The notes under the pieces: generated by a model
Told to the model about the DNA's origin: nothing
The model's input: only the letters and a program-made list of their open reading frames with translations
The model's database searches: none
Position numbers and translations under genes: made by a program
From: Roseimicrobium sp. ORNL1
Lineage (GTDB): Bacteria > Verrucomicrobiota > Verrucomicrobiia > Verrucomicrobiales > Verrucomicrobiaceae
Direction of reading: 5' to 3'
DNA length: 64,000 nucleotides
NCBI RefSeq assembly: GCF_011044495.1
Contig: NZ_CP049143.1
Location: 3,162,001-3,226,000 of the forward strand
Shown here: one piece after another, positions 1,087 through 14,401 of the stretch
Position numbering within the stretch: the first letter of the stretch is position 1
How the letters are laid out: every line of letters starts with the position of its first letter

Positions 1087-3339
1087 ATGCCAGCGACTGA
1101 CACGGAAAGCAGCGACTCGAACCAAGAGGCTTCCACCTGGATGGAAGGCATGGCTGCCTTTCTCGCGCAGGACGATGAGATCCTCGCCATGCGTCTGGAT
1201 CCCGCTGGTCAGACTATTTCTGTGGCTACGAAGGGCATCGTCAATGCCGCGAAGCTGAAAGACAAGCTCGATACGCTCATCCGGGAACTTGATGAGCAGT
1301 TCCTGTCGACCCGTCCGGCAGCACAGGGCGCCTCGGATGCCGCGCTGGTAATTGAGAGACCGCATGTCTCCTCCGCCGCGGAGCGGAAGGCCTGGACCTG
1401 GAGGCAGTTTGCCTGGCCCACGGTGCGTGATGCAGAGCTGGATCAAGCTTCTGAGTGGAAGCGCCTGGCCCTGCAAGCCGGTATGTGTCTGGTGCTGCTG
1501 CTGGCCGGCGTGATCTTGGAGCGGCACGAGCCCCTGAAGTGGCTGGCCATCGCCTGCTACACCGGCTCCATGATCGCCGGCGGCATCAATACAGCGGTGG
1601 AGACCTGGGCGAAGCTCAAGAACCTGCGCCTTGATATCGACTTCCTCATGCTCGCGGTGGCCCTCGCGGCATCGTCGATTGGCGCGTGGCGTGAGGGGGC
1701 TCTGCTGCTCTGTCTTTTCTCCACCTCCGGCGCCATCGAGCACTATGTGCTGCATCGCACACGCCGCGAGATTAGCGCGCTTACAAGAGCTGCACCGAAG
1801 GTGGCGCGGGTGATCGCTGCGGATGGCAGCCTGCAAATGCGTCCTGTGGAGTCTCTCGTAATTGGAGACCAATTGCGAGTGCTGCCGGATGAGTTGATTC
1901 CCGTCGACGGAACCTTGATTTCTGGAGAGACGGCGGTGGATGAATCCAATGTCACCGGTGAATCAGTGCCCATTGAGAAGGCCAGCGGAGATACGCTGTT
2001 GGGCGGAACGTTGAATCTCTGGGGCTCCATCGCCCTGCGTGTGGAAAAGGTGTCCGCCGAGAGCACGCTGCAGCGCATCATCGCGCTCATTGAGCAGGCG
2101 GAGCACCTGCGCGCGCCGAGCCAGCGCTTCACGGACAAGTTCGGCACCACCTACACGCTTTCTGCGATAGGGCTGACGATTGGCATGTTCTTCGTGTGGT
2201 GGCTGGTGGTGGGCATACAGCCGTTTGAGAATCTGCCTGGCACCACATCCGCCTTCTACCGCTCAATGACGTTGCTCGTGGTCATGTCTCCCTGTGCATT
2301 GGCCTTGAGTATTCCCTCCGCTATCCTCGCGGCGATTGCCTGGGGGGCGAGACACGGTCTGCTCTTCCGCGGTGGCGCCGCGGTCGAGAAGCTCGCTGAG
2401 GTGGATGTCATTTGCATGGATAAGACCGGCACGCTCACCGAGGGGGCCATGCGCGTGCGTCAGGTGGAGAGCTTCCCGGCCGGTCACGAGATTGAAGTCG
2501 CGCGCATCGCGGTCTCGCTGGACAGCCATTCCAATCATCCCATCTCACGCGCCATCAGTGAGTACGGCAGGCGGCACGAGCTGAAGCCGGAGACCGTGAC
2601 GGATTTCCAGCGCATCTCAGGGATGGGATTGCGCGGGAAGATTCATGATGTGGTGTATTATGTCGGCAGGCGTGAACTGCTGAGCCAGCCCCAATTCCGC
2701 GAATGGCTGCAGAAGGTGCCGGACACACCGCTTGCCTTCTCCGAAGTCTGGGTTCTGGGACAGGGCGTGGTGGGGCGCATCTTGTTGGAGGACTCCATTC
2801 GTGAGGGCAGCCGCTCCGTGCTGAAGCGGCTGAAGGAACATGGTATCGAAACCATGATGCTCACCGGTGACCGCCGCGCCGCCGCGGAGAGCGTGGCCAA
2901 GGAGTTGGGGGTCGCCAGCGTGCGTGCCGGCCTGCACCCGGGCGATAAGGTGAACATCATTCAAGAACTCACATCAAAGGGACGGAAAGTTGCGATGGTG
3001 GGTGACGGTGTGAATGATGCGCCCAGCCTTGCCGCCGCGCATGTGAGTGTGGCCATGGGCGCGCGGGGCAGTGATGCCGCCATGGAGCAGAGTGACATCG
3101 TGCTCATGAACGACCGCATTGAGAAGCTGCTCACTGCCCTGGAACTGAGTCAGCGTGCGCGGCGCATCATCCGGCAGAATTTGGCCATTGCGCTCGGAGC
3201 CATCGCGCTGGCTTCACTGGCGTCCCTCGCATCGCTGCTGCCCCTGGCCTGGGGCGTGGTGGCGCATGAAGGGAGCACCCTCATTGTGTGCCTGAACAGC
3301 CTGCGGCTCATCTTCCACAAGGACACGGCGGCGAAGTGA
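1087..3339 (+). CDS. P1B-4 type metal-efflux P-type ATPase (Co/Zn/Fe class)
   Basis: Inner-membrane ATP-driven transition-metal exporter, 750 aa from the ATG at 1087; a TTG at 949 in frame is less likely. Visible landmarks are the actuator motif TGES, the membrane metal-site motif SPC (residues 401-403), the phosphorylation motif DKTGT (D445), GDGVNDAP near the C terminus and HEGST (H727) in the last helices. SPC together with HEG-[G/S]-T defines the P1B-4 subgroup (CoaT, CtpD, PfeT, HMA1), which transports Co2+, Zn2+ or Fe2+, rather than the CPC-bearing copper pumps such as CcoI. The first 75 residues resemble a degenerate HMA domain without CxxC. It lies divergent from ccoS-ccoN, where a CcoI copper pump would be expected. 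Confidence 0.88.
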   Translation: MPATDTESSDSNQEASTWMEGMAAFLAQDDEILAMRLDPAGQTISVATKGIVNAAKLKDKLDTLIRELDEQFLSTRPAAQGASDAALVIERPHVSSAAERKAWTWRQFAWPTVRDAELDQASEWKRLALQAGMCLVLLLAGVILERHEPLKWLAIACYTGSMIAGGINTAVETWAKLKNLRLDIDFLMLAVALAASSIGAWREGALLLCLFSTSGAIEHYVLHRTRREISALTRAAPKVARVIAADGSLQMRPVESLVIGDQLRVLPDELIPVDGTLISGETAVDESNVTGESVPIEKASGDTLLGGTLNLWGSIALRVEKVSAESTLQRIIALIEQAEHLRAPSQRFTDKFGTTYTLSAIGLTIGMFFVWWLVVGIQPFENLPGTTSAFYRSMTLLVVMSPCALALSIPSAILAAIAWGARHGLLFRGGAAVEKLAEVDVICMDKTGTLTEGAMRVRQVESFPAGHEIEVARIAVSLDSHSNHPISRAISEYGRRHELKPETVTDFQRISGMGLRGKIHDVVYYVGRRELLSQPQFREWLQKVPDTPLAFSEVWVLGQGVVGRILLEDSIREGSRSVLKRLKEHGIETMMLTGDRRAAAESVAKELGVASVRAGLHPGDKVNIIQELTSKGRKVAMVGDGVNDAPSLAAAHVSVAMGARGSDAAMEQSDIVLMNDRIEKLLTALELSQRARRIIRQNLAIALGAIALASLASLASLLPLAWGVVAHEGSTLIVCLNSLRLIFHKDTAAK

Positions 3340-3443
3340 AGCAACATGCCGTGGAAGCACGCAAGATGTGCACGGACCGCCACAAGGGAAGGCTGGCAGG
3401 CTGTGGCGAAATCCTCTATACTGGGAACGAATTCCTCATTGCC

Positions 3444-3941
3444 ATGAATGCAACGAACGACATCGAATTCGACCCGAACACCTATGACATCGAAGACAGC
3501 GAGGATGTCATCAATCTGGCGAAGAGCATTGTGAACGGGCACTATCCAGGCATCCTCGGTACCATCGATGCCGAGGGAAAGCCGCAGATGCGCTGGATGT
3601 CCACCCTGGCCCTGGATGAGTTCCCCGTCTTCCAGACACTCACTTCACCGGGCAGCCGGAAGGTGCAGGAACTCAAGGAACATCCGGAGGTGAACTGGAT
3701 GTTCTTCAACAAGGACCTCTCCCTCGTGGTGAATCTCAAGGGCAAGGCGAAGGTCATCTCGGATGGCCCGACACTGAAGCGCATCTGGCAGCGCATCGTG
3801 GACATGTCCCATGCTTATTTCCTGGAGCACTATCACAAGAAGCCCGGCTTCTGCGCGATCGAGACCACGGTCGAATCCGTCGAGATCCACTCACCGAAGC
3901 ACAACGTGCACTTCACGCTCAAGCCATTTGAGATGGCGTGA
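3444..3941 (+). CDS. Pyridoxamine 5'-phosphate oxidase-fold (general stress protein 26-like) protein
   Basis: 165-aa cytosolic flavin- or haem-binding split-barrel protein of the PPOX superfamily. It opens with an acidic stretch, then the barrel strands GILGTIDAEGKPQMRWMSTL, TLTSPGSRKVQELKEHPEVNW and MFFNKDLSLVVNLKGKAKVI, typical of the GSP26/YzzA branch. A longer frame from 3288 overlaps the ATPase gene, so the ATG at 3444 is preferred. It lies about 100 bp after the ATPase gene in the same direction and may be co-transcribed. Substrate cannot be read from sequence. Such proteins are often part of general or hypoxic stress regulons, which fits the neighbourhood (inference). Confidence 0.8.
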   Translation: MNATNDIEFDPNTYDIEDSEDVINLAKSIVNGHYPGILGTIDAEGKPQMRWMSTLALDEFPVFQTLTSPGSRKVQELKEHPEVNWMFFNKDLSLVVNLKGKAKVISDGPTLKRIWQRIVDMSHAYFLEHYHKKPGFCAIETTVESVEIHSPKHNVHFTLKPFEMA

Positions 3942-3963
3942 GCGTGATGATCTGCAAGGCGTT

Positions 3964-6024
3964 CTACGAGCGCCTCGACTGGGGCGGGCGCGGCATGCGG
4001 CCCGGTGGCACCCGGTTCAAGGTGGCTCCGGGAATGCTGTTCATGGAGAACCATGAGGCAAGAGGGCGTGCCAGCAGCGGTGAGAACAACGCTGCCCGCA
4101 TGAAGGCATCCCTGAAAACGGCCTTTGCGCCTCCTCGCAAGGTCCCGAGCTTCATCCCCCATGCTGCCCGCCGGGTGGCGATACGGGCAGCGCGTGAGCG
4201 AATGCGATCATAGGCCTGAGACCAGGCAGCAGTTCTCGATGGATCGTCCTGCATGGCTGGTATGGCCACACTCAGGAACTCCGCGTCCGCGAATCCTGTG
4301 TTCATTCCCTGGCCTCCGATGGGACTCATGACATGCGCAGCATCTCCGCAAAGGAAGATGCGTCCGTCGACGAATGTGTCGCATTTCATCCAGCGTGGAC
4401 TGAAGGCAAACGCTGGAGGCAGTGCTTCGTCGGGTGTCCCCAGTGAAATGCCGGTGCGGTGCAGCACGGTCTGCACAATGGTCGTCCCATCCGCGCTGGT
4501 GGAGGCAAGGCGATCCGGCACCTGAATGACCCAGCGCCTCCTGCCTTCGGGAAGAGGGAAGGACTCGACGGCTCCATCCGCCGTGAAGAACAGGCGGGCC
4601 TCATTTCCCAAACCACTGGAGTCCTTGAAGTCCGCCATCACGAAGTGGCAGCCATATCTCCCTTCATGAGCGCGAATGCGTAGCCGGTTTCTCGTGGAGC
4701 CACGACTTCCATCGCAGGCGATCACGTGTCCTGCCGTCATGATGGTGGGTGTTTCCCGGTTGCGCACTTCTACTTGAACACCGGAACTGTCTTGAGAGAG
4801 GATCTTCGCTTCACTTCCTCTGACGATGGTCGCATGGGGATAGCGTTCGAGATTCGTGCGCAGGAGTTCCATGGTGTGGGATTGTGGCACACTCAGTACG
4901 AACTTGTGTGTGCCGGGTAGGAGGGTGAAGTCGCAGACACCGAGTGTGCCGTAGTGGCCATCCACCTTCACTTGTGCAATGGGAACTCCCAAGGCGATGA
5001 GTGACTCCGCGAGATTCAGCCGGCCAAAGATTTCGAGGGAGGGTGGGGTGATGCCAATGGCTTGCGATGGACATGACACGTCGGCCTGCTGCTCGATGAT
5101 CAGAACCTGTGTGCCACGCGCCGCGAGGAGATTCGCCAGCAGCAGTCCTACAGGACCGGCACCGATGATGACCACATCGTGATTCACGTTTTCACTTCTC
5201 GCGGTAGGAGCCTCCTTGCGCCGTCGTGGTAGACGGGGCAACCAGTAGGGCACGCGCTCCTGGTAGCGGACGAAGGCGTCTCCGTAGTATCTGGCATAGC
5301 GCTTCTCCTTCAGCACCGGCGCTGCGATACAGTAGCCAGTCCAAAGCAGTGCGGCCAGAAGATGATCCAGCGTCCAGACTGGAGCCGTCCACAGGATGAG
5401 AGCGAATGAGAGGTAGATGGGCTGCCGTACAAGCCGGAAGGTTCCCGACCTAGCGAAGGGTTTGTATACCACCGCCTCATTGCGCCACACGCTGCGCCAC
5501 CCCAGCGATCCGGTCTGCACATCCATGCCGGCATCATGCATCGACTTTGCCAGCAGCAGCCATGACGCTGCATAGAAAACATCCAGCAGATGCAGAAGCC
5601 AGCCTGTTGGCGCAGACCACAGCACATGTGAAGGAGACCACCAGAGGAACACCAGCAGGAGTTGCAGCGATGAGATGGTCGCAAAAAGGGTGGTGGACAG
5701 CGCCTTCCCCAGAGAGAAAGGCGCCAGTCTGGCCAACCACTTGCGACCACGCTCTCCGAGCAGCAGGCTGTGCCCAGCGGCGAACTGGGAGAGGAGCGCG
5801 AGGTTTCCCAGTACTCCCTTCCATCCTGAAAGGGTGCTCCATCCCGTTGTTAAGCCGGAACGGAGCGCCACGAACATCGTTGAGACCGCGATGATGAACA
5901 GTCCGTGGCACAGCATCCCATAGCCAAGCGCGGTCCACCGCTGCAGCGTGGTGTAGGGCGGAGAGGTGGGCCATCGCGTCGCTGGCCCTGAAGTTCCCTC
6001 CATCGACTTTGATGTGTCAGCCAT
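3964..6024 (-). CDS. Fusion of isoprenylcysteine-carboxyl-methyltransferase-like membrane domain and FAD monooxygenase (SrsB-SrsC-like)
   Basis: 686-aa two-domain enzyme. Residues about 25-265 form a multi-helix membrane methyltransferase of the ICMT/PEMT superfamily, ending in LVRQPIYLSF and the diagnostic tail EKRYARYYGDAFVRYQ-VPYWLP. After a basic linker, residue 281 onward is a UbiH/PHBH-type flavin monooxygenase: GAGPVG Rossmann motif (288-293), the CDGSRGSTRN segment and the late FAD motif GDAAHVMSPIGGQG. In Streptomyces griseus these activities are separate proteins, SrsB and SrsC, acting after the type III PKS SrsA on alkylresorcinols. The start at 6024 overlaps the PKS stop by 8 nt (ATGGCTGA), indicating translational coupling; a longer upstream frame has no family resemblance. 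No stop or frame break lies between the domains. Confidence 0.85.
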   Translation of the reverse strand: MADTSKSMEGTSGPATRWPTSPPYTTLQRWTALGYGMLCHGLFIIAVSTMFVALRSGLTTGWSTLSGWKGVLGNLALLSQFAAGHSLLLGERGRKWLARLAPFSLGKALSTTLFATISSLQLLLVFLWWSPSHVLWSAPTGWLLHLLDVFYAASWLLLAKSMHDAGMDVQTGSLGWRSVWRNEAVVYKPFARSGTFRLVRQPIYLSFALILWTAPVWTLDHLLAALLWTGYCIAAPVLKEKRYARYYGDAFVRYQERVPYWLPRLPRRRKEAPTARSENVNHDVVIIGAGPVGLLLANLLAARGTQVLIIEQQADVSCPSQAIGITPPSLEIFGRLNLAESLIALGVPIAQVKVDGHYGTLGVCDFTLLPGTHKFVLSVPQSHTMELLRTNLERYPHATIVRGSEAKILSQDSSGVQVEVRNRETPTIMTAGHVIACDGSRGSTRNRLRIRAHEGRYGCHFVMADFKDSSGLGNEARLFFTADGAVESFPLPEGRRRWVIQVPDRLASTSADGTTIVQTVLHRTGISLGTPDEALPPAFAFSPRWMKCDTFVDGRIFLCGDAAHVMSPIGGQGMNTGFADAEFLSVAIPAMQDDPSRTAAWSQAYDRIRSRAARIATRRAAWGMKLGTLRGGAKAVFRDAFMRAALFSPLLARPLASWFSMNSIPGATLNRVPPGRMPRPPQSRRS

Positions 6025-7186
6025 GCAACGTAGAATCGTGAAGGGTTTGCAAGGCCGTGAGTTCGATGGCGCGCTGCTTGGGACTGCATCCCACCCGCTG
6101 GAGCAGTGCCACCTCCACGGTGAGTCCCGGGCCAAAGGCCATGGCACACGTGGGTCCAGTCGTGGGGGCGCGCGTCTCCAGGAGGTCCTTCAACACAAAG
6201 AGCACTGTCGCGCTGCTCATGTTGCCATGGTTCTTCAACACGCGGCGGGAGCTCGCCAGCGCGGTGTTTGGCAGGTTCAGTCCCTGCTCCACCTTGTCGA
6301 GAATGGCGCGTCCACCGGGATGCACGGCCCACTCGGTGATCTCTTCGGGAGAGTGATCATGCTTGCCCAGTACTCGCGTCATGAGCGTTTGCATTTCTGC
6401 GCCGAGTATCTCCGGCACATAGCTGCTGAGCTTGATCTCGAAGCCGTGATTCCCAATGTCCCACGCCATGTGAGCTGCGCCTGAGGGCACCAACTCCGAA
6501 GTGAAGCCATCCAATCGATAAGCGGGTGTCTCTGCAGCCGGAGGACGCGCACTGATGATGGCCGCTGCAGCCCCATCCGCGAAAAGCGAATTGGCGAGCA
6601 TCACATCCGGCTTGTCTTCCAGTTGGAGATGGAGCGTGCACAGCTCCAGGCACACGACCAGCACTACGGCATCTTCACGAGCCGCGCAGAACTGCGCAGC
6701 CATGCGCAACGCCGGGAAGGCGGCATAGCAGCCCATGAATCCCAGGGTGTAGCGCTCCACACCGGGATTCAGCCCGAGCGCCTCCACCAGATGCAGTTCT
6801 GGCCCTGGATTCACGAATCCGGTGCAGGTGACATAGATGACATGCGTGATGTCGCTGGCCTTGTACCCACTGCCCTCGAGTGCACGTCTGGCTACTTGCT
6901 CGGACATCTCACGCGAGGCTTTGGCATAGCGGGCATTCCGCTCTGCCGTACCGGGGTTCCCCGGATAGCCTTTCTCGTTTGGTTGGAAGAGGCCGTTGCC
7001 GCCGGTCTCAAAGAATGTCTCCAGCACGCTGTACCGGGTCTCAATCCCGGAACGTCTGTACAGAGCACTCAGCAGGCGCCGGTGCCGTTCATCGGAGGTC
7101 CATCCCATCATGCGCTCACGGATGGTATCCTGCTGATACGAGAAGGGCGCCGCCAGGGTCGCGATGTGGTGAATGTATGCGCTCAT
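6017..7186 (-). CDS. Type III polyketide synthase (chalcone/stilbene synthase family)
   Basis: 389-aa homodimeric ketosynthase that extends an acyl-CoA starter with malonyl-CoA and cyclises it. The triad is complete: C153 in GFMGCYAAF, H289 in AVHPGGRAI and N322 in LKNHGNMSSATV. Length matches the family. It is the middle gene of a three-gene minus-strand operon: yceI-like gene 7 bp upstream, methyltransferase-hydroxylase fusion overlapping 8 nt downstream. By analogy with SrsA and BpsA, a long-chain alkylresorcinol or alkylpyrone product is likely, but the chain-length specificity cannot be read here. Confidence 0.92.
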   Translation of the reverse strand: MSAYIHHIATLAAPFSYQQDTIRERMMGWTSDERHRRLLSALYRRSGIETRYSVLETFFETGGNGLFQPNEKGYPGNPGTAERNARYAKASREMSEQVARRALEGSGYKASDITHVIYVTCTGFVNPGPELHLVEALGLNPGVERYTLGFMGCYAAFPALRMAAQFCAAREDAVVLVVCLELCTLHLQLEDKPDVMLANSLFADGAAAAIISARPPAAETPAYRLDGFTSELVPSGAAHMAWDIGNHGFEIKLSSYVPEILGAEMQTLMTRVLGKHDHSPEEITEWAVHPGGRAILDKVEQGLNLPNTALASSRRVLKNHGNMSSATVLFVLKDLLETRAPTTGPTCAMAFGPGLTVEVALLQRVGCSPKQRAIELTALQTLHDSTLHG

Positions 7187-7193
7187 CTGTGGC

Positions 7194-7787
7194 TTAGGCG
7201 TTGACTTTCTCCAGCGTGACCTTGGCGTGGACCTTCACCACGTCCCCTACACGGATGACCAGCATGACGGACGGCACCTTGATGCCGTACGCCTTCATCG
7301 AGACATCGAAGTCCAGTTCGAACGACGCGCTGTCTCCTTGCTGCTTCCAGTTCGAGATGGTCCCTGTGGCAGACTGTGTTTTCCCAAGAATAGTCAGCTT
7401 GAAGGGGAGCACCTGAGGCGAAGTGCCGGTGCCGGAAATGAGCTGGGAGAACTGCGTGTCGAACTCACCGGTCACCAGTGGGAAGTCCACGGCACGCATG
7501 GCCTTGCGCATGTTCTCGTCGCGCTTGGGTTCCTTGGTGTCCATTTCCACGGTCTTCACCTCTACCTTGGCTGTGATGGACGACGGTTTGTCGGCGTCCG
7601 TCATCCCAACGGTGGTGATGAAGGGCTGGGCCTTTACGGTACCTGACCAGTCGTGAAGGGTTGAAGTGCCGGCAAATGTAATGGAGGCAGAGGCTTTCCA
7701 CTGGGTGGTGGAGCTCTGCGCGGAGGCATGCGTCTCCAGCCCAAGCAGGACTGCAAGTGACGCAAGAAGGGCGAAAGGGATTCTCAT
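7194..7787 (-). CDS. YceI-family periplasmic lipid-binding protein
   Basis: 197-aa secreted protein. The ATG at 7787 begins a signal peptide (MRIPFALLASLAVLLGL, cleavage near HASAQ). The mature part has YceI features: WKASASITFAGTSTLHDWSG near the start, DENMRKAMRAVDFP in the middle and a beta-rich C terminus. Known YceI structures are lipocalin-like barrels that hold a long isoprenoid or quinone-like chain. Its position as first gene of the type III PKS operon (7 bp spacing) suggests a role in carrying the polyketide lipid in the periplasm; that role is inference. Confidence 0.85.
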   Translation of the reverse strand: MRIPFALLASLAVLLGLETHASAQSSTTQWKASASITFAGTSTLHDWSGTVKAQPFITTVGMTDADKPSSITAKVEVKTVEMDTKEPKRDENMRKAMRAVDFPLVTGEFDTQFSQLISGTGTSPQVLPFKLTILGKTQSATGTISNWKQQGDSASFELDFDVSMKAYGIKVPSVMLVIRVGDVVKVHAKVTLEKVNA

Positions 7788-7967
7788 GATGATGATGAAA
7801 AAGATGTAGAAGTGAAATGCTGATGAACAGAAGTGGGCGCGGCCGTCCGCATGACGTGCCAACGCAATTGCGTCCCATGGCCGTGTATTCGTCACGGCCT
7901 GGAGTGGGCGTGGATCACGAGCCTGCTGCCCTTACGGAAAGAGCATCATACGTGACCGGAATTCTGT

Positions 7968-8390
7968 TCAAAGCAGATGCACGCAGCGGGCGAGCCGTGC
8001 TTCTTCTGCGGTGGCCATCCCTTCATGGGGAGGGCTTCTTCCTGTCAGCCGCATGAGCCGCACCACCGTTGGCGCTGGCCGATACTCCCATGCGTGCAGC
8101 ATCTCCCACTGACAATTTTTCACGTCCGGTATCTCCGAGACGACAGCGGCGAGGGATTCGTCTGTAGTGCGGTCAGGGCGCTCGTCGCAATGGCAGGGAA
8201 TCTCCGGGCCCTGCGGGAGAGGTGCTTTTACCTGGCATGGGCCAGGATGCTCCTGCCTGACAAATGTTCCGTGATGATGGTGATGATGCGGAACATGAAT
8301 GCCGAGCGGCTCCAGCAACTGGCAAAGGCACCCCGGCAGGATGAGCTGCAAGGATGCCCAGACACAGAGGATGGATTTTAGCCAGGTCAC
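7968..8390 (-). CDS. Small secreted His-rich, Cys-rich protein, unknown function
   Basis: 140-aa protein with a hydrophobic N terminus (MTWLKSILCVWASLQLILPGC) that could be a signal peptide or lipobox, then a natural hexahistidine (VPHHHHHHGT, about residues 35-40), and CxC (PCHCDE). The His run and paired Cys suggest metal binding, for example copper, iron or zinc, in the periplasm. No named family was recognised. It is alone between the yceI operon and the globin genes. Upstream (about 8461-8490) lies TGCTAACTGGTCTCAATAGCA, whose TGCTA/TAGCA ends are inverted; a regulator cannot be named. Confidence 0.6.
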   Translation of the reverse strand: MTWLKSILCVWASLQLILPGCLCQLLEPLGIHVPHHHHHHGTFVRQEHPGPCQVKAPLPQGPEIPCHCDERPDRTTDESLAAVVSEIPDVKNCQWEMLHAWEYRPAPTVVRLMRLTGRSPPHEGMATAEEARLARCVHLL

Positions 8391-8552
8391 AAAGACACGA
8401 CGAGCGGAAGACCGATTCTGTGACCTCGAGATTTGCTTGGCGTTGAATGATTTTTTGCAATGCTAACTGGTCTCAATAGCAAGTTGGCGGAGACGTGACC
8501 TTCGCCGCCAGACAGGCTGAACGACGAAGGTCTTTTAATGGGAGTGCCGACC

Positions 8553-9146
8553 TTAAGGAACGGCGGGTGTCGCAGGCTTCGCCGGGCGATTGAGCACGGC
8601 ATCGCGAGTGCTGCCGACAATGGCCATGGCCTGTTCGATCAGTTGTGGATCGACCTTCAGTTCGGTGAGGGTTGCCAGCAGGTTCTCGGCAATGGCATCG
8701 AAGTGCGAGTCATTGAGTCCGCCGAGGCTTTCATGAGCGCTGCGGAGATCCTTGCCCGCGTACGGAATGGGACCACCGAGCGCAGCGGAGAGGAATTCCT
8801 TCTGCTTCCGCTTCTGCTTGTTCATGTTGATGTCCTCGAAGAAGTGGTTCACGCGCTTGTCCGCCAGCACCTTCACATAGAAGAGTTCCACGGCTGCATC
8901 GATGGCCGTCTTGCCGCCGAGCTTTTGGTACAGGCTGTTGGCACGATCATCGGAGAACTTCTGCTTGGCGGTCTCGTCGGCGAAGGCATAGCTGTTGCCT
9001 TCGTACACGAGCGTGATGGCGGGGTTCGCAGCTTTGCCAGTGACAGGGCAGGTGGGGGCGGTGGATTCGGCGCCTTTGCTGGTGTCCGCAGCAGTGGCGG
9101 CAAGAGAGCAGAAGGCGAGACTGAGGACCAGGATGGTTCTTTTCAT
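8553..9146 (-). CDS. Exported YHS-like/group I truncated haemoglobin fusion
   Basis: 197 aa. Signal peptide MKRTILVLSLAFCSLAATAAD; then about 45 residues resembling a YHS metal-binding domain (CPVTGKA, then LVYEGNSYAFADETAKQKF); then a group I truncated globin from LYQKLGGKTAIDAAV with VNHFFEDINM and the proximal-His segment SAHESLGGLNDSHFD. Start set at the ATG at 9146 because the signal peptide begins there. Truncated globins bind O2 or NO; an exported copy would act in the periplasm. It lies 119 bp downstream of the group III globin gene on the same strand, so co-regulation by the NsrR-like repressor is plausible. Confidence 0.85.
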   Translation of the reverse strand: MKRTILVLSLAFCSLAATAADTSKGAESTAPTCPVTGKAANPAITLVYEGNSYAFADETAKQKFSDDRANSLYQKLGGKTAIDAAVELFYVKVLADKRVNHFFEDINMNKQKRKQKEFLSAALGGPIPYAGKDLRSAHESLGGLNDSHFDAIAENLLATLTELKVDPQLIEQAMAIVGSTRDAVLNRPAKPATPAVP

Positions 9147-9265
9147 GGGTGGTAGCGTGTGAGCAGTGTGTGTTTGTGTTTCTTTTTCGGTTTGTCTGGG
9201 GGTATAAGCGTCCCTCCCACCGAGGAGGTGGATTGGGGCGCAAAGGGGGCAGCCGCTTTTCTTCC

Positions 9266-9739
9266 TCAAGCGGGCTGTTCGGCCCGGTACTTCGCGTAGC
9301 GGGCGCGTTGCTCCGGTGTCAGGCGGGCAGGATCGAAGCGTGGATCGGGCACACCATTGATGCGGCTGAACAGAACGTTCGCCATGTCCTGCGCGCAGTT
9401 CTTGATGTGATCCGCATTGGGACCGCTGAAAAGGCTGTCCACCGTTTGGCGGAAGAGCAGCAGCCAACGGTCAAACTGGGTGCGGCCCATCTCGGTCTGT
9501 GGCACCAGCTTCGCATGCGCGGCAACCGGATTGCCGGTGAATCCGCCCGTGCGGAAGAGCACCGTCTCCCAGAAGGCATACATGCGCGGCAGGTGGGTTT
9601 CCCAGTTGGTTCTGGCGACTTCGTCGAAGATAAAACCCAGGAGTTCATCCTTCCGCACGACCTCGTAGAAGGCATTCACAAGCCTCTCGATATCGGGGCG
9701 ACCTTGCAGGTCGGGGAGTTGGGGGTTGGCAATGTTCAT
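9266..9739 (-). CDS. Group III truncated haemoglobin
   Basis: 157-aa cytoplasmic globin of the trHbP (Campylobacter Ctb-like) class, associated with nitrosative and oxygen stress. Visible hallmarks are the N-terminal ERLVNAFYEVVRKDELLGFIF, HLPRMYAFWETVLF and GNPVAAHAKL with the proximal His. Length is slightly above the usual 130 aa because of a C-terminal tail (TPEQRARYAKYRAEQPA). Divergent from the NsrR-type gene, with an operator-like palindrome 8 bp upstream of the start codon (9747-9761). Expected to be repressed by NsrR and induced by NO. Confidence 0.9.
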   Translation of the reverse strand: MNIANPQLPDLQGRPDIERLVNAFYEVVRKDELLGFIFDEVARTNWETHLPRMYAFWETVLFRTGGFTGNPVAAHAKLVPQTEMGRTQFDRWLLLFRQTVDSLFSGPNADHIKNCAQDMANVLFSRINGVPDPRFDPARLTPEQRARYAKYRAEQPA

Positions 9740-9746
9740 TGAAATG

Positions 9747-9761
9747 GGTATTATAAATACC
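9747..9761. promoter_or_regulatory. Predicted NsrR operator
   Basis: GGTATTATAAATACC is an inverted repeat with 6-bp perfect arms and a 3-nt centre, and its core GTATTATAAATAC differs at one position from the GTATTTTAAATAC-type NsrR box. It lies between the divergent group III globin gene and the Rrf2-family regulator gene, close to the globin start, where repressor binding would block its transcription. Site seen directly; the regulator assignment is inference from position and match. Confidence 0.65.
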
Positions 9762-9826
9762 TAATTGGAAAACAAATCTTTCACTCCACAATGGGAATGC
9801 ATCGTTTCTGATTCTGATCTCACCTG

Positions 9827-10231
9827 ATGAAGCTCACCTACCGCACCGACTATGCTCTCCGCGTCCTCATCTATTTGATGAAGCGACCGGGAGAGAAGGC
9901 CACCACACGCGAGATGGCGGCGTTCTACGGTGTCTCGTTGAATCATCTCACGAAGGTGGCCAAGACGCTGACCCGCGCGGGCTGGCTGAAGACGGAACGC
10001 GGAGCGAGTGGGGGATTGATGCTGGCGCCACACACGCCGGATACGAAACTGGGCGAAATCGTACGCCTCACCGAGACGGCAGATGTCGTGGAGTGCTTCA
10101 CACCTGCGACGAATACCTGCCCCATTTCCGCGAAATGCGATTTGAAGCCCATCCTCTACAAGGCCCAAAGTGCCTTCTACTCCGTGCTCGATGCGCACAC
10201 GGTGCGTGATCTGGCGATGACATCGAAGTAG
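9827..10231 (+). CDS. nsrR: Rrf2-family Fe-S repressor, NsrR type
   Basis: 134-aa winged-helix regulator. MKLTYRTDYALRVLIYL is the standard Rrf2 opening, followed by the recognition region YGVSLNHLTKVAKTLTRAGWL. Three Cys, C90, C98 and C104 (ECFTPATNTC then AKC), have the spacing of NsrR, which ligates a [4Fe-4S] cluster destroyed by NO. IscR has a different Cys arrangement. Divergent from the two haemoglobin genes, with an NsrR-like palindrome between them. It probably represses the globin genes and itself. Symbol given by homology and context. Confidence 0.85.
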   Translation: MKLTYRTDYALRVLIYLMKRPGEKATTREMAAFYGVSLNHLTKVAKTLTRAGWLKTERGASGGLMLAPHTPDTKLGEIVRLTETADVVECFTPATNTCPISAKCDLKPILYKAQSAFYSVLDAHTVRDLAMTSK

Positions 10232-10503
10232 GTTCATCAAAAAGGGGGGCTGTTCTGCACCCCCAAGCTCGCATCCGGAGCTGCGGGGCACTCGGCATCT
10301 CTTGGGATTCGCCGGTGAAATCTTGGCGCGGCTCCCGTGAACCAGCTGCGCCTGAGCTGCGCGCGCTCCAAGAAACGCGCAATACATCCCAATGGATGCC
10401 GAGAGGTTTCGTCCCACTCGTGGGATCATGAAAGTGTCTTCCCAGCACACACCTTCGATTCACTCCTTCATCCCTCAGACTCCAACTCGAACCCACTACT
10501 CCC

Positions 10504-11460
10504 ATGAAAGTTCTCTGCGGTACCGATTTCTCCGAGCCTGCCAAAGCCGCCGCAGAAGTGGCGGCGTACATGGCGGCGAAGCTCAAACTTCCCCTGAAGC
10601 TGGTGCACTGCGTCGCAGACTGGCTCGCGCCTACGGAGTATCCGGTCGACGACACGCTCCAGACTCACGGCCAGGATTTGTTGGATGCGGAGGCTGACCG
10701 AATCTGCTCTCCTGGACAGAGGGTGGAGACCACGGTCATGCATGGCAGTGCCGACCATCATCTCACTTCCGAGGGAAATCACGACACCGCAATGGTGGTG
10801 GTGGGCGCCACGGGCAAGGGCATGGCCACGCGACTGTTGATGGGCAGTGTCGCTGAGCATGTGGCGGAGACCGTGAGTTCGCCCACGCTTGTCGTACGTC
10901 GTCCGGAGCCGTTGCTGGAGTGGCTGCAGAACGGCAAATCACTGAAGGTGCTTTGCGCGTCGGACATCAGCGAGTCTGAGCAGGCCATTTCCAGTGCGCT
11001 GGCAAGGTTGCTCATCCTCGGCCCCATCGATCTCGAGTGTGCCCACCTCGTCCAGACAGATGCCTTCATCTTGGAGAGCGAGTCATGGGCCGCTGAACCG
11101 TCGGACCTTCTTGCCCCCACGGCTGCAGAAGTGGCCAAGATTCAGGAGAAGGTGAAGGAACGCTTCTACCTTACAGTCGGTAAAATGCCGCAGGCTGTGC
11201 ATGTGCGGGTCTCATTGGGGAATCCCGCCTATGACCTTGTCTCCTTGGCTCACGAAACGAAAGCCGACCTGATCGTGGTGGGTTCGCACCACAAGCATGG
11301 GCTGCAACGTCTGCGGCATCCTTCCTTCTCCCGGCGAGTGCTCGCCCACACGGACACGAATGTCCTGTGTGTGTACCTGGGCACCGCGGACCTCGAGCCG
11401 CGGGTTTCCGTTACGCTTCGAAAAGAGGGGTATAAGGCGGAAGTCTCGGCCACAGCGTAG
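10504..11460 (+). CDS. Tandem-domain universal stress protein (UspA family)
   Basis: 318 aa with two UspA domains. Domain 1 (1-135) has the ATP-binding signature VVVGATGKG-(9)-GSVAEHV; domain 2 (about 147-300) has IVVGSHHKHGLQRLRHPSFSRRVL, where the G-S/T pattern is altered, so nucleotide binding may be confined to the first half. Start is the ATG at 10504, giving MKVLCGTDFSEPAK, a typical Usp N terminus. A second Usp gene follows about 100 bp downstream in the same direction. Tandem Usp proteins commonly accompany low-oxygen or stationary-phase regulons, consistent with the cbb3, globin and PPOX neighbours. Confidence 0.88.
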   Translation: MKVLCGTDFSEPAKAAAEVAAYMAAKLKLPLKLVHCVADWLAPTEYPVDDTLQTHGQDLLDAEADRICSPGQRVETTVMHGSADHHLTSEGNHDTAMVVVGATGKGMATRLLMGSVAEHVAETVSSPTLVVRRPEPLLEWLQNGKSLKVLCASDISESEQAISSALARLLILGPIDLECAHLVQTDAFILESESWAAEPSDLLAPTAAEVAKIQEKVKERFYLTVGKMPQAVHVRVSLGNPAYDLVSLAHETKADLIVVGSHHKHGLQRLRHPSFSRRVLAHTDTNVLCVYLGTADLEPRVSVTLRKEGYKAEVSATA

Positions 11461-11564
11461 TCGTGCGTCCTGCAAGGATGATGCGCGCTCGCAATGACGC
11501 AGGACGCGCATCGCATCGCAAGATCCGCAGTGCCCCCTATTCCCACATGGGGTATCCTAGGATC

Positions 11565-12512
11565 ATGAAAATCGCGCACAGTACAGCACCCGTGGTTGCT
11601 GAGCCTGGCTCGCGTGTCAGCAGGATTCTCGCACCCACGGATTTCTCGCCTTTCTCCCTGGCCGCCGTGGACGCCACAGTCGCTCTGGTGATGGCCAGCC
11701 CCGGTTCAACCGTCACTTTGTTACACGTGGTGGATCCCAAGGACGAACCCACTGCGGAACATGGAACAGCGCATCGTGGCACGAACCTGCCCAGCCGCAT
11801 CAATCATGCGGACCGGATGATGAAGCAGCTGCGCACCAAATACGGTGCACATGATGGCGACACGCTTGAAACGAGAGTCATGACTGGAGATGCCGCCCGC
11901 AGCATCTGTGAGATGGCCCGGAACGAGAGCTTTGACCTCATTGTGACGTCCAGCCATGGACACATGGGCCTGGCACGCACGCTCATTGGCAGCGTGGCTG
12001 AGCAGGTGGTGCAGCATGCGCCCTGTCCTGTTCTCGTGACAAAGGCCTTTGCGAATTCAGATGGCGTGCCCACGCTGAGGACGCCCGTGTTCAAGTTCAA
12101 GCGCATCGTGGTAGGTTATGACCACCGGGCCGGTGCCCGACATGCGCTGAACATGGCCCGTGCCTTGAGCAACCAGGAAGGCAGCCATGTCACTCTAGTG
12201 CATGTCCTGGAGCCTGCGCCTGCCTTTGTACTTTGCCCTGCGGAAAAGAAAGCTTGTTCTGATCGCCTCCATAAAGCTCTTGAAAAACTGGATGAGGTGC
12301 GCACGACCAAGCTACCGCTCAGCCATGATTGGGACCTGCGTGTCGAGGTGGGAGAGCCCTGGGACGTGATTGTGAAACTCGCGAAGGAGAAGGACAGCGA
12401 TCTGGTCATCGTAGGGCCGCACGAGCACACCCGCTGGGGACATTCGTACGTGGGCAGCACTGCGCAGTGGGTGGTGCGCCAGGCATGGTGCCCGGTGCTG
12501 GTAGTGAAGTGA
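11565..12512 (+). CDS. Second tandem-domain universal stress protein
   Basis: 315 aa from the ATG at 11565 (MKIAHSTAPV), before ILAPTDFSPFS. Both UspA halves keep a recognisable nucleotide motif: VTSSHGHMGLARTLIGSVAEQVV in the first and IVGPHEHTRWGHSYVGSTAQWVV in the second. The protein is not a recent copy of the preceding Usp, as the two share only family-level resemblance. Followed after 45 bp by the PAS histidine kinase gene, which suggests a single stress-signalling transcription unit. The longer reading from 11463 lacks family support. Confidence 0.87.
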   Translation: MKIAHSTAPVVAEPGSRVSRILAPTDFSPFSLAAVDATVALVMASPGSTVTLLHVVDPKDEPTAEHGTAHRGTNLPSRINHADRMMKQLRTKYGAHDGDTLETRVMTGDAARSICEMARNESFDLIVTSSHGHMGLARTLIGSVAEQVVQHAPCPVLVTKAFANSDGVPTLRTPVFKFKRIVVGYDHRAGARHALNMARALSNQEGSHVTLVHVLEPAPAFVLCPAEKKACSDRLHKALEKLDEVRTTKLPLSHDWDLRVEVGEPWDVIVKLAKEKDSDLVIVGPHEHTRWGHSYVGSTAQWVVRQAWCPVLVVK

Positions 12513-12557
12513 AGCGTCAGGAGCGCTCGCACAGGCGAGCAGAATGGGGAGAGGCGA

Positions 12558-13910
12558 ATGCCCAAAAGAATTGACATGACCGACATGGAACAATTACTGA
12601 GATGTCAGGCACGGGACGGTGACTTGCGGCTTCTAACTGCAAGTCACTTTCGACTCGGTGCCGCATTAAGTTCCATGTCTTCCGAAGCTTCCAATTCAGA
12701 AGGATTGCCCACCTCCGGTGGTCCCGGCACCCCGCCGGTGCAGCCTGCCTATGAAGAACTGTTGGAGAGGCTGGGGGAGTTGCACGACCTCAAGGCCGCG
12801 CTGGATGCGCATTCCATTGTCGCCATCACGGATCCTGAGGGTGATATCACCTATGTGAACGACAAGTTCTGCCAGATCTCCATGTACAGCCGTGAGGAGC
12901 TGCTGGGGCGCAATCACCGGATTATCAATTCCGGCCACCATCCGCGTGAGTTCTTCACCGGCATGTGGCGCACTATCTCGAAGGGCAAGGTATGGCGGGG
13001 TGAGATCAAGAATCGCGCGAAGGACGGCAGCTACTACTGGGTGGATACGACCATCTTCCCCTTCCTCGACAAGGCAGGGCAGCCCGTGCAGTACATCGCC
13101 ATTCGCACCGACATCAGCGTGCGGAAGAAGTACGAGGAGCAACTCGCCCAGATGGCGCGCACGCTCGCGGAAAAGAACAAGGAACTGGAGGCCATCGTCT
13201 ACGTCGCCTCGCACGACTTGCGCTCGCCGCTGGTGAACATCCAGGGATTCAGCAAGGAACTCTCCCGAGCCTGCAAGCTGTTGGAGACACGACTTGCCGG
13301 AAATGAGGCGGAGAAGCTTCCCGGTGTGGAAGAAGCGCTCAAGGAAGACATTCCGGAAGCGCTCAGCTTCATTCTCTCCAGCGTGGGCAAGATGGAAGCG
13401 CTTCTCGCCGGCTTCCTCAGATTCTCACGCATGGGGCGCGTGGCCCTCACCATCGTGCGGCTCGATATGAACCGTCTCATGTCCGAGATTATGGACACGA
13501 TGGAATACCAGTTCCAGCAGGCGGGAGCCACCGTGCGGGTCAGTGACTTGCCGCCCTGCATGGGCGATGCCGTGCAGATCAATCAGGTATTCTCCAACTT
13601 GATCGACAACGCTGTGAAATACCGCAGCCCGGGCCGGCCATGCAGCGTTACCATCAGTGCCCGGCGTGAAGATGGTCGCTCCATTTACTGCGTGGAGGAC
13701 AATGGCATCGGCATTGATACGGCCCACCAGTCGAAGGTGTTTGAAATCTTCCACCGCCTGGACCCTTCCCATGGACACGGTGAAGGGCTCGGGCTGACCA
13801 TCGCGCTGCGCATTCTGGAGCGGCATGAGGGAAGAATCTGGCTGGAGTCTGAGGCGGGCAAAGGCAGCCGCTTCTTTGTTTCACTCCCGGCTCCTTCAAC
13901 GCCCGCTTGA
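12558..13910 (+). CDS. PAS-domain sensor histidine kinase
   Basis: 450-aa soluble kinase. Disordered N terminus (1-70), one PAS/PAC domain (about 83-195: [17 protein letters not shown] through [13 protein letters not shown]), a HisKA region with phosphoacceptor H219 in [14 protein letters not shown], and an HATPase domain with N box [10 protein letters not shown]1 VEDNGIGID and G2 GEGLGLTI. No membrane segment, so the signal is cytoplasmic, perhaps redox or a small ligand in PAS. The ATG at 12558 has a strong Shine-Dalgarno GGGGAGAGG; an internal ATG at 12675 is the alternative. The HDLRSPL kinase class with a stand-alone CheY-like partner resembles phytochrome-Rcp pairs; the partner follows immediately. 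Confidence 0.9.
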
Positions 13911-13936
13911 TCTGCGAGTCTTCACGTGTTGCCTTC

Positions 13937-14401
13937 ATGAACTTGAAGCAGGAAGTTACCATTCTCATTGTCGATGATGATCCCGGTCATGCCCGGCTCA
14001 TCGAAAAAAATCTGCGCCGCGCCGCTCTGGCGAATCCCATCGAGCGTTTCTCAGACGGGCAGGAGGTGCTGGATTTCCTCTTCTGCAAAACAGAAAGGCA
14101 GCGGCCCGCGGAGGCAGCTTATCTGCTGCTGCTGGATATCCGCATGCCCAAGGTGGATGGCGTGGAAGTCTTGCGGCAGATCAAGGAGGACACGGAGTTG
14201 CGGAAGATTCCCGTGATCATGCTCACCACTACGGATGATCCTCGGGAGGTTTCGCGTTGTCACGCCCTGGGTTGCAGTCACTACCTGGTGAAGCCGGTGG
14301 ACTACGAGAAATTCTCCGAGACCATCGCGAGCCTGGGGCACTTTGTGACCATGGTCGAAGTGCCCGAAGTCAACGTCCAGCCCAGCCCTTCTGGAGCATG
14401 A
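13937..14401 (+). CDS. Single-domain CheY/Rcp-like response regulator
   Basis: 154 aa consisting of one receiver domain: ILIVDDDPGHARLIEKNLRRA, phosphoacceptor D67 in LLLLDIRMPKVDG, T in MLTTTDDP and K in YLVKPVDYEKF. The insertion around LFCKTERQRPAEA is typical of the Rcp1 subfamily that pairs with phytochrome-like kinases. There is no output domain. The start at ATG 13937 is preferred over an in-frame TTG at 13907. Its stop overlaps the next gene start (ATGA at 14398-14401), so it is translationally coupled to the hybrid kinase. Confidence 0.9.
   Translation: MNLKQEVTILIVDDDPGHARLIEKNLRRAALANPIERFSDGQEVLDFLFCKTERQRPAEAAYLLLLDIRMPKVDGVEVLRQIKEDTELRKIPVIMLTTTDDPREVSRCHALGCSHYLVKPVDYEKFSETIASLGHFVTMVEVPEVNVQPSPSGA

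Follow-up and report, generated by a model that had tools for sequence, protein, structure and literature searches.

A yceI, type III polyketide synthase and methyltransferase-hydroxylase fusion gene unit in Roseimicrobium sp. ORNL1, a candidate source of alkylquinone-type lipids

The region analysed here, hereafter the window, is a stretch of 64,000 nucleotides from Roseimicrobium sp. ORNL1 (contig NZ_CP049143.1, positions 3,162,001 to 3,226,000), whose genome is a single contig of 7.96 Mb. It carries yceI, a type III polyketide synthase (PKS) gene and a gene encoding a fused methyltransferase-flavin adenine dinucleotide (FAD) hydroxylase, arranged head-to-tail on the minus strand. The first gene of the unit, yceI (7194-7787), encodes a 197-amino acid (aa) periplasmic lipid-binding lipocalin of the YceI family, with a Sec-type leader visible by eye and a PF04264 match of 42.9 bits (cut-off 23.7). 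The PKS gene follows after a gap of 7 nt (6017-7186; 389 aa); its product carries a Cys153-His289-Asn322 triad and Trp242, and scored 91.9 and 91.4 bits against Chal_sti_synt_N and Chal_sti_synt_C (PF00195 and PF02797; cut-off 27). The fusion gene (3964-6024) is a 686-aa frame without interruption, comprising a methyltransferase half with membrane helices (5212-6024, residues ~1-271), which is MddA-like and falls in a clade of its own, and a hydroxylase half of the group A flavoprotein monooxygenases (3964-5190, residues ~279-686) that matched FAD_binding_3 (PF01494) at 157.3 bits (cut-off 22). The PKS stop and the fusion start overlap by 8 nt at 6017-6024 (ATGGCTGA), and translational coupling through this overlap is possible. 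Coordinates and Pfam domains agree with an initial annotation of the window, which had described yceI, a PKS with an intact Cys-His-Asn triad, a single 686-aa protein and the 8-nt overlap.

The fusion itself is genuine, as the initial annotation had proposed. We searched the fused protein against 387 genomes of the phylum (E 1e-30; up to three candidates scored per genome) and found matches in 38. Ten matched through both halves (G000, the genome of the window, and G187, G190, G159, G247, G035, G050, G087, G174 and G038), three held the methyltransferase as a separate match (G004, G093 and G186), and the other 25 matched the FAD half only. Two stops were flagged in the G050 match, yet the matched stretch translates stop-free. 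A full fusion, at 50% identity, was also present in a metagenome-assembled genome (MAG) of Prosthecobacter sp. W1111 (G391/L108). A lost stop, frameshift or assembly error was therefore ruled out as the source of the fusion, since it recurs across the phylum and in the Prosthecobacter MAG. The AlphaFold model of the fusion, built from a 44-row alignment, had a predicted local distance difference test score (pLDDT) of 88.2 and a predicted template modelling score of 0.82.

The PKS has the catalytic triad and the resorcinol-type Trp looked for in an SrsABC-type operon. Both were invariant in all 26 aligned PKSs and in all seven PKSs of a second alignment, three of which belong to ICMT-type clusters of Actinobacteria (L218 and L220 assigned by Pfam, L210 by eye). 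Resorcinol versus pyrone formation has been ascribed in part to Trp281 of ArsB, which is Gly in ArsC (PMC9927152, PMC5916927; statements from papers cited by PMC number refer to the parts of each that were available). Trp242 aligns with Gly of a stilbene synthase, and through this and the ICMT-cluster PKS alignments it is taken to occupy the ArsB Trp281 position, ArsB and SrsA being outside the aligned set. Because the triad and Trp are invariant in the 26 and ArsB Trp281 goes with resorcinol formation, the window PKS is read as a putative resorcinol-type enzyme. It shares 30% identity with the PKS of the ICMT-type cluster L218.

For the hydroxylase half, the predicted model supports a p-hydroxybenzoate hydroxylase (PHBH)/UbiH-like aromatic hydroxylase fold. 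VIA-align placed residues ~279-679 of the model with p-hydroxybenzoate hydroxylases and PnpA (Z ~42, root-mean-square deviation (rmsd) 2.5), and Foldseek matched them to UbiH (7mwa) and UbiI (4k22), in keeping with the UbiH-like FAD monooxygenase named in the initial annotation. Together with the PF01494 match, this is the flavin-dependent aromatic hydroxylase sought in an SrsABC-type operon. BLASTP of the half against the L218 FAD protein gave no meaningful match, though both belong to PF01494 (66.4 bits in L218).

The ICMT-type assignment first given to the methyltransferase half did not hold. Hmmscan of this half found no Pfam family up to E 0.5. Against NCBIfam it matched MddA (NF045656) over nearly the whole profile at 78.6 bits, below the cut-off of 270, which leaves it outside the MddA methanethiol S-methyltransferases. 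Identity with ICMT or SrsB was rejected on stand-ins, SrsB itself not being among the sequences: the PKS-adjacent ICMT protein of the actinobacterial cluster L218 scored 101.9 bits against PF04140, and BLASTP between it and the window half gave E 0.034 for a 31-residue stretch surrounding the RxP motif. Measured against this stand-in and PF04140, the unit does not have the ICMT-family methyltransferase of an SrsABC-type operon. SrsB is said, in the title of one paper, to perform decarboxylative methylation of alkylresorcylic acid; because the methyltransferase families differ, we did not carry this activity over to the window half. Both kinds occur in the actinobacterial genome G431 (L220), where an ICMT gene lies between the PKS and FAD genes and a separate 278-aa homologue of the window half (44%) adjoins a 745-aa gene that resembles an MMPL transporter by eye. 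G431 was one of six among 246 genomes with any match to the methyltransferase half, in a search that was not PKS-based.

In a 21-row tree, 15 methyltransferases of the pathway separated from six MddA-like proteins with 100/100 support. Arg200, Pro202, Glu240, Tyr254 and Val258 (window numbering) are common to all 21 rows, while His40, Met50, Gln170, Trp176, Tyr204, Lys239 and Arg242 do not vary among the 15 and differ in the six. Because of this split and the residues invariant only in the 15, the half is judged by sequence to represent a distinct branch of membrane methyltransferases, one that has so far been seen together with this pathway. A structure search with the whole fusion returned matches for residues ~279-679 only and none for the methyltransferase half, and searching PDB sequences with that half turned up a single match, at E 0.65. 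That the half acts on a thiol, by MddA-like methanethiol chemistry, or on some other small substrate instead of the ring would fit its sole family match, MddA at 78.6 bits. We regard this as highly improbable, however, given that the score is far under the cut-off and the clade is separate, that all 13 genomes of the phylum with the methyltransferase half, at up to three candidates scored per genome, also have a PKS match (on another contig in G050), and that the close actinobacterial match found without reference to PKS sits in a PKS cluster.

To place the unit among its relatives, eight protein families were mapped with iterated profiles on 115 loci that had been selected for the similarity of their PKS: the window, 34 loci from the genome sample (33 from the best-scoring end, including L033, and one low-scoring, G234) and the best 80 titled loci. 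This set is no census, and L055 and L129 come from one genome. The methyltransferase was found in 15 of the loci and was fused in 11. Other labels assigned were UbiE (24 loci), MMPL (seven) and X9 (nine); overlap between the UbiE and MTc profiles makes the labels approximate. In L041 both UbiE/COQ5 and MMPL were borne out by Pfam, while in L103 a gene with the UbiE label stands closer to other methyltransferases of class I. The most complete clusters have the order YceI-PKS-MMPL-MT=FAD-UbiE-MTc (L039, L041 and L043) or YceI-PKS-X9-MT=FAD-UbiE-MTc (L055/L129 and L056), where MT=FAD is the fusion. Most actinobacterial and Balneolota loci comprise PKS-MTc-FAD and have no YceI. A second cluster in the genome of the window, L033 (G000:C1, ~6.839-6.842 Mb), contains YceI, a PKS 57% identical to that of the window and an FAD protein; a serine carboxypeptidase-like gene lies upstream of it.

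Two further features of these loci were noted. X9 is a protein of ~160-220 aa encoded in L045, L048, L049, L051, L055, L056, L105, L120 and L129; the three tested (L049, L129 and L105) matched no Pfam family above cut-off, and in L129 and L105 a leader peptide can be recognised by eye. At L049:9822-11647, a response regulator and a histidine kinase adjoin the YceI end of the cluster and diverge from it, and open reading frames clustering with one or both were present in several other loci.

The window YceI belongs to its family by a PF04264 score above cut-off, a lipocalin-like barrel and an N-terminal leader seen by eye. Its AlphaFold model (pLDDT 86.4) aligned by VIA-align with the polyisoprenoid-binding protein TT1927b (1wub; Z 19.1, rmsd 2.1 over 161 residues) and with E. 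coli YceI (Z 18.4). YceI proteins have been found to contain octaprenyl compounds and ubiquinone-8 (PMC9113575). The genome of the window has three YceI genes and two type III PKS genes, and two of the former lie directly upstream of the two latter. With random placement of three YceI genes, ~0.0001 would be expected to fall on the strand of a given PKS and no more than 500 bases upstream of it, although the two clusters may be duplicates and hence not independent. Among the 115 loci, YceI was encoded close to the PKS and on its strand in 32 (16 of the 34 sampled loci, 15 of the 80 titled loci, and the window), directly before it in 28. It was present in all 15 loci with the methyltransferase, as against 17 of the 100 without it.

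An alternative is that YceI is a general stress-defence lipocalin merely located beside the PKS, the pathway consisting of PKS and fusion only. Burkholderia YceI lipocalins, linked to a cytochrome b561 gene, have a reported activity against lipid peroxyl radicals (PMC9113575), and YceI was not found in 83 of the 115 loci, including the Balneolota-titled ones; in at least five of the 83 (L059, L115, L132, L142 and L158) the sequence upstream of the PKS is shorter than 600 bases, and absence is therefore not established for them. Against this stand the two of three YceI genes directly upstream of the genome's type III PKS genes, the complete co-occurrence with the methyltransferase, and the reach of the YceI-PKS link to Desulfuromusa- and Desulfuromonas-titled records (L105 and L116, respectively), and we consider the alternative improbable. 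On the evidence of gene order, the YceI-PKS linkage is real and conserved in part of the family. The polyisoprenoid-binding fold and the 15 of 15 versus 17 of 100 linkage are the reasons for viewing YceI as the probable lipid carrier of the pathway.

The history of the fusion is less simple than its recurrence. For the FAD domain tree, 40 loci were chosen from the 91 with an FAD match and 39 rows were entered. Fused and unfused proteins stood side by side within families, and a single clade of the ten fused rows was rejected under the model used (approximately unbiased test, p-AU 1.2e-30). By this tree, the fusion has accordingly been lost, gained or moved several times. The methyltransferase tree, from which L129 was left out as a duplicate of L055, has well-supported branches compatible with one fusion origin, and 0% of 200 bootstrap trees show one. 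A plausible history, and the one we prefer, is an old fusion that repeatedly lost its methyltransferase half; repeated fusion or transfer may alternatively have occurred. Two other joined frames were seen in the same collection, each in one genome: a 779-aa frame uniting PKS and FAD hydroxylase, another fusion within the same pathway (L044:1684-4023), and a stop-to-stop frame with FAD hydroxylase and MTc methyltransferase, a third kind of fusion (L052:4803-6761).

Taken together, we think it probable, with some reservation, that the three genes work as a single unit to produce and handle an alkylquinone-type phenolic lipid with a long alkyl chain. The PKS would extend a fatty acyl-CoA with malonyl-CoA units and close the ring, giving an alkylresorcinol or alkylresorcylic acid, a greasy product expected to stay in the inner membrane. 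There, the membrane-embedded methyltransferase half would add a methyl group to the ring, on oxygen or on carbon, and the FAD half, which the fusion would keep at the membrane, would hydroxylate it to an alkyl(hydro)quinone, the order of these steps being our proposal. YceI, secreted to the periplasm, would hold the alkyl chain as its ligand and carry or store the product, a lipid with a putative redox or membrane-protective role. The alkylquinone-type reading was chosen because the FAD half has a UbiH/UbiI-like fold and because fuller clusters add UbiE/COQ5-type and other class I methyltransferases and MMPL. Since the arrangement recurs in relatives, the unit appears to be a genuine variant of a known pathway, one not described so far. 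The initial description of the operon as SrsABC-like accordingly stands in part: the resorcinol-type Trp and the PHBH/UbiH-like fold bear out an alkylresorcinol/alkylquinone-type pathway, whereas a one-to-one equivalence with SrsA, SrsB and SrsC is not upheld by the non-ICMT half, the dissimilar FAD half and the 30% identity of the PKS, all judged on stand-ins.

A rival end product is a methylated, hydroxylated alkylresorcinol, hierridin-like, which would be a structural or antibiotic lipid exported or stored by YceI, and not a quinone redox carrier. The window unit has the same enzyme classes as such a pathway would use. We nevertheless hold this product to be rather unlikely, as the fuller clusters contain methyltransferases of the UbiE type and others, as is seen where quinone heads are decorated, and the carrier belongs to a family known to bind quinones. 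More broadly, the alkylquinone-type reading could extend to a ubiquinone-like pathway built on a polyketide, not an isoprenoid, in Verrucomicrobiota and some Desulfuromonadales. The fused enzyme and UbiE-type and other methyltransferases would decorate the ring, and a dedicated YceI lipocalin, with MMPL in some lineages, would carry this non-isoprenoid quinone through the periplasm, where it would act as an extracytoplasmic electron carrier or antioxidant; we offer this as a tentative possibility.

Several observations weigh against the alkylquinone-type reading. Most of the 115 loci yielded no YceI. The window unit has no UbiE, second methyltransferase or MMPL genes of the kind seen in fuller clusters, and one second-methyltransferase relative used as query, run with no positive control, found no match in the genome of the window. 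The sister cluster L033 has no methyltransferase half, the half resembles a thiol methyltransferase more than an ICMT, and the FAD tree has the fusion lost, gained or moved several times. If a polyketide quinone is nonetheless made, such carriers extend from Actinobacteria (PMC9927152) to Verrucomicrobiota, and YceI lipocalins, whose natural ligand is described as unsettled (PMC9113575), gain a genetically linked candidate ligand. The recurrent fusion also shows which pair of tailoring steps acts jointly and provides a single enzyme for experiments.

Around the unit, a PNPOx-like gene (3459-3941, plus strand) lies past the end of the fusion and is convergent to it; because of this gene, the unit very likely ends after the fusion. 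A promoter and terminator scan of 3300-9900 gave nothing informative for the unit. Upstream, the interval 8553-14398 contains two globin-like genes on the strand of the unit, the nearer above and the farther below its Pfam cut-off, with a divergent Rrf2 regulator beside them; two universal stress proteins come next, followed by a PAS kinase with a response regulator. This neighbourhood fits a redox or low-oxygen role, but is only suggestive.

Literature searches found nothing pairing YceI with type III polyketide synthase and nothing joining MddA, methyltransferase and type III polyketide, and the word 'fusion' is absent from PMC10896814, PMC8086630 and PMC9927152, with no search aimed at fusions; each is weak evidence of absence. 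In Verrucomicrobiota, the Oceaniferula flavus paper lists a type III PKS cluster, its main text having no resorcinol, methyltransferase or YceI. The YceI/BcnA lipocalins share family, fold and signal peptide with the window YceI, but BcnA is linked to a cytochrome b561 gene (PMC9113575) where the window YceI is linked to a PKS gene. The YceI linkage, flagged as unusual in the initial annotation, is real and conserved in part of the family, yet not wholly unreported. The PKS of the planctomycete 'Saltatorellus ferox' yielded C15/C17 alkylresorcinols and methylated forms in C. glutamicum, and its operon encodes two methyltransferases together with a 'lipid/isoprenoid-binding protein' (Milke et al. 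2024, PMC10896814). By analogy this operon anticipates the carrier linkage, although the word YceI is absent from the text of PMC10896814; the available parts describe no oxidoreductase or fusion beside the two methyltransferase genes, and we liken the operon by description, not sequence.

The hidABC hierridin clusters, also likened by description, share a methyltransferase, an oxidoreductase and a type III PKS with the window and act on pentadecylresorcinol, but consist of separate genes, mostly in another order, and no carrier is mentioned in the available text (PMC10896814, PMC8086630). In Streptomyces griseus, srsABC encodes a type III PKS, a methyltransferase and a flavin hydroxylase that yield methylated alkylresorcinols and alkylquinones (PMC9927152, PMC6669644, PMC10896814). 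This and other PKS-ICMT-FAD clusters combine the same three activities as the window unit. They differ in that the SrsB-type enzyme is a separate ICMT, as srsB of M. antarctica is called (PMC6669644), whereas the window has an MddA-like methyltransferase fused to the hydroxylase, and in that YceI, present in the window, goes unmentioned in the available parts of the same three papers. The pkqABC operons of M. smegmatis and Streptomyces sp. MNU77 likewise have three genes, with no YceI or MMPL mentioned in what was available of PMC9927152; they share PKS, methyltransferase, oxidoreductase and resorcinol-type Trp with the window, a likeness drawn from description and not from pkqB/C sequence. 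Their product is an alkyl benzoquinone, and such polyketide quinones are reported to serve as electron carriers in mycobacteria and are suggested to do so in Streptomyces (PMC9927152). Functionally, srsABC and pkqABC are the closest known systems to the window unit.

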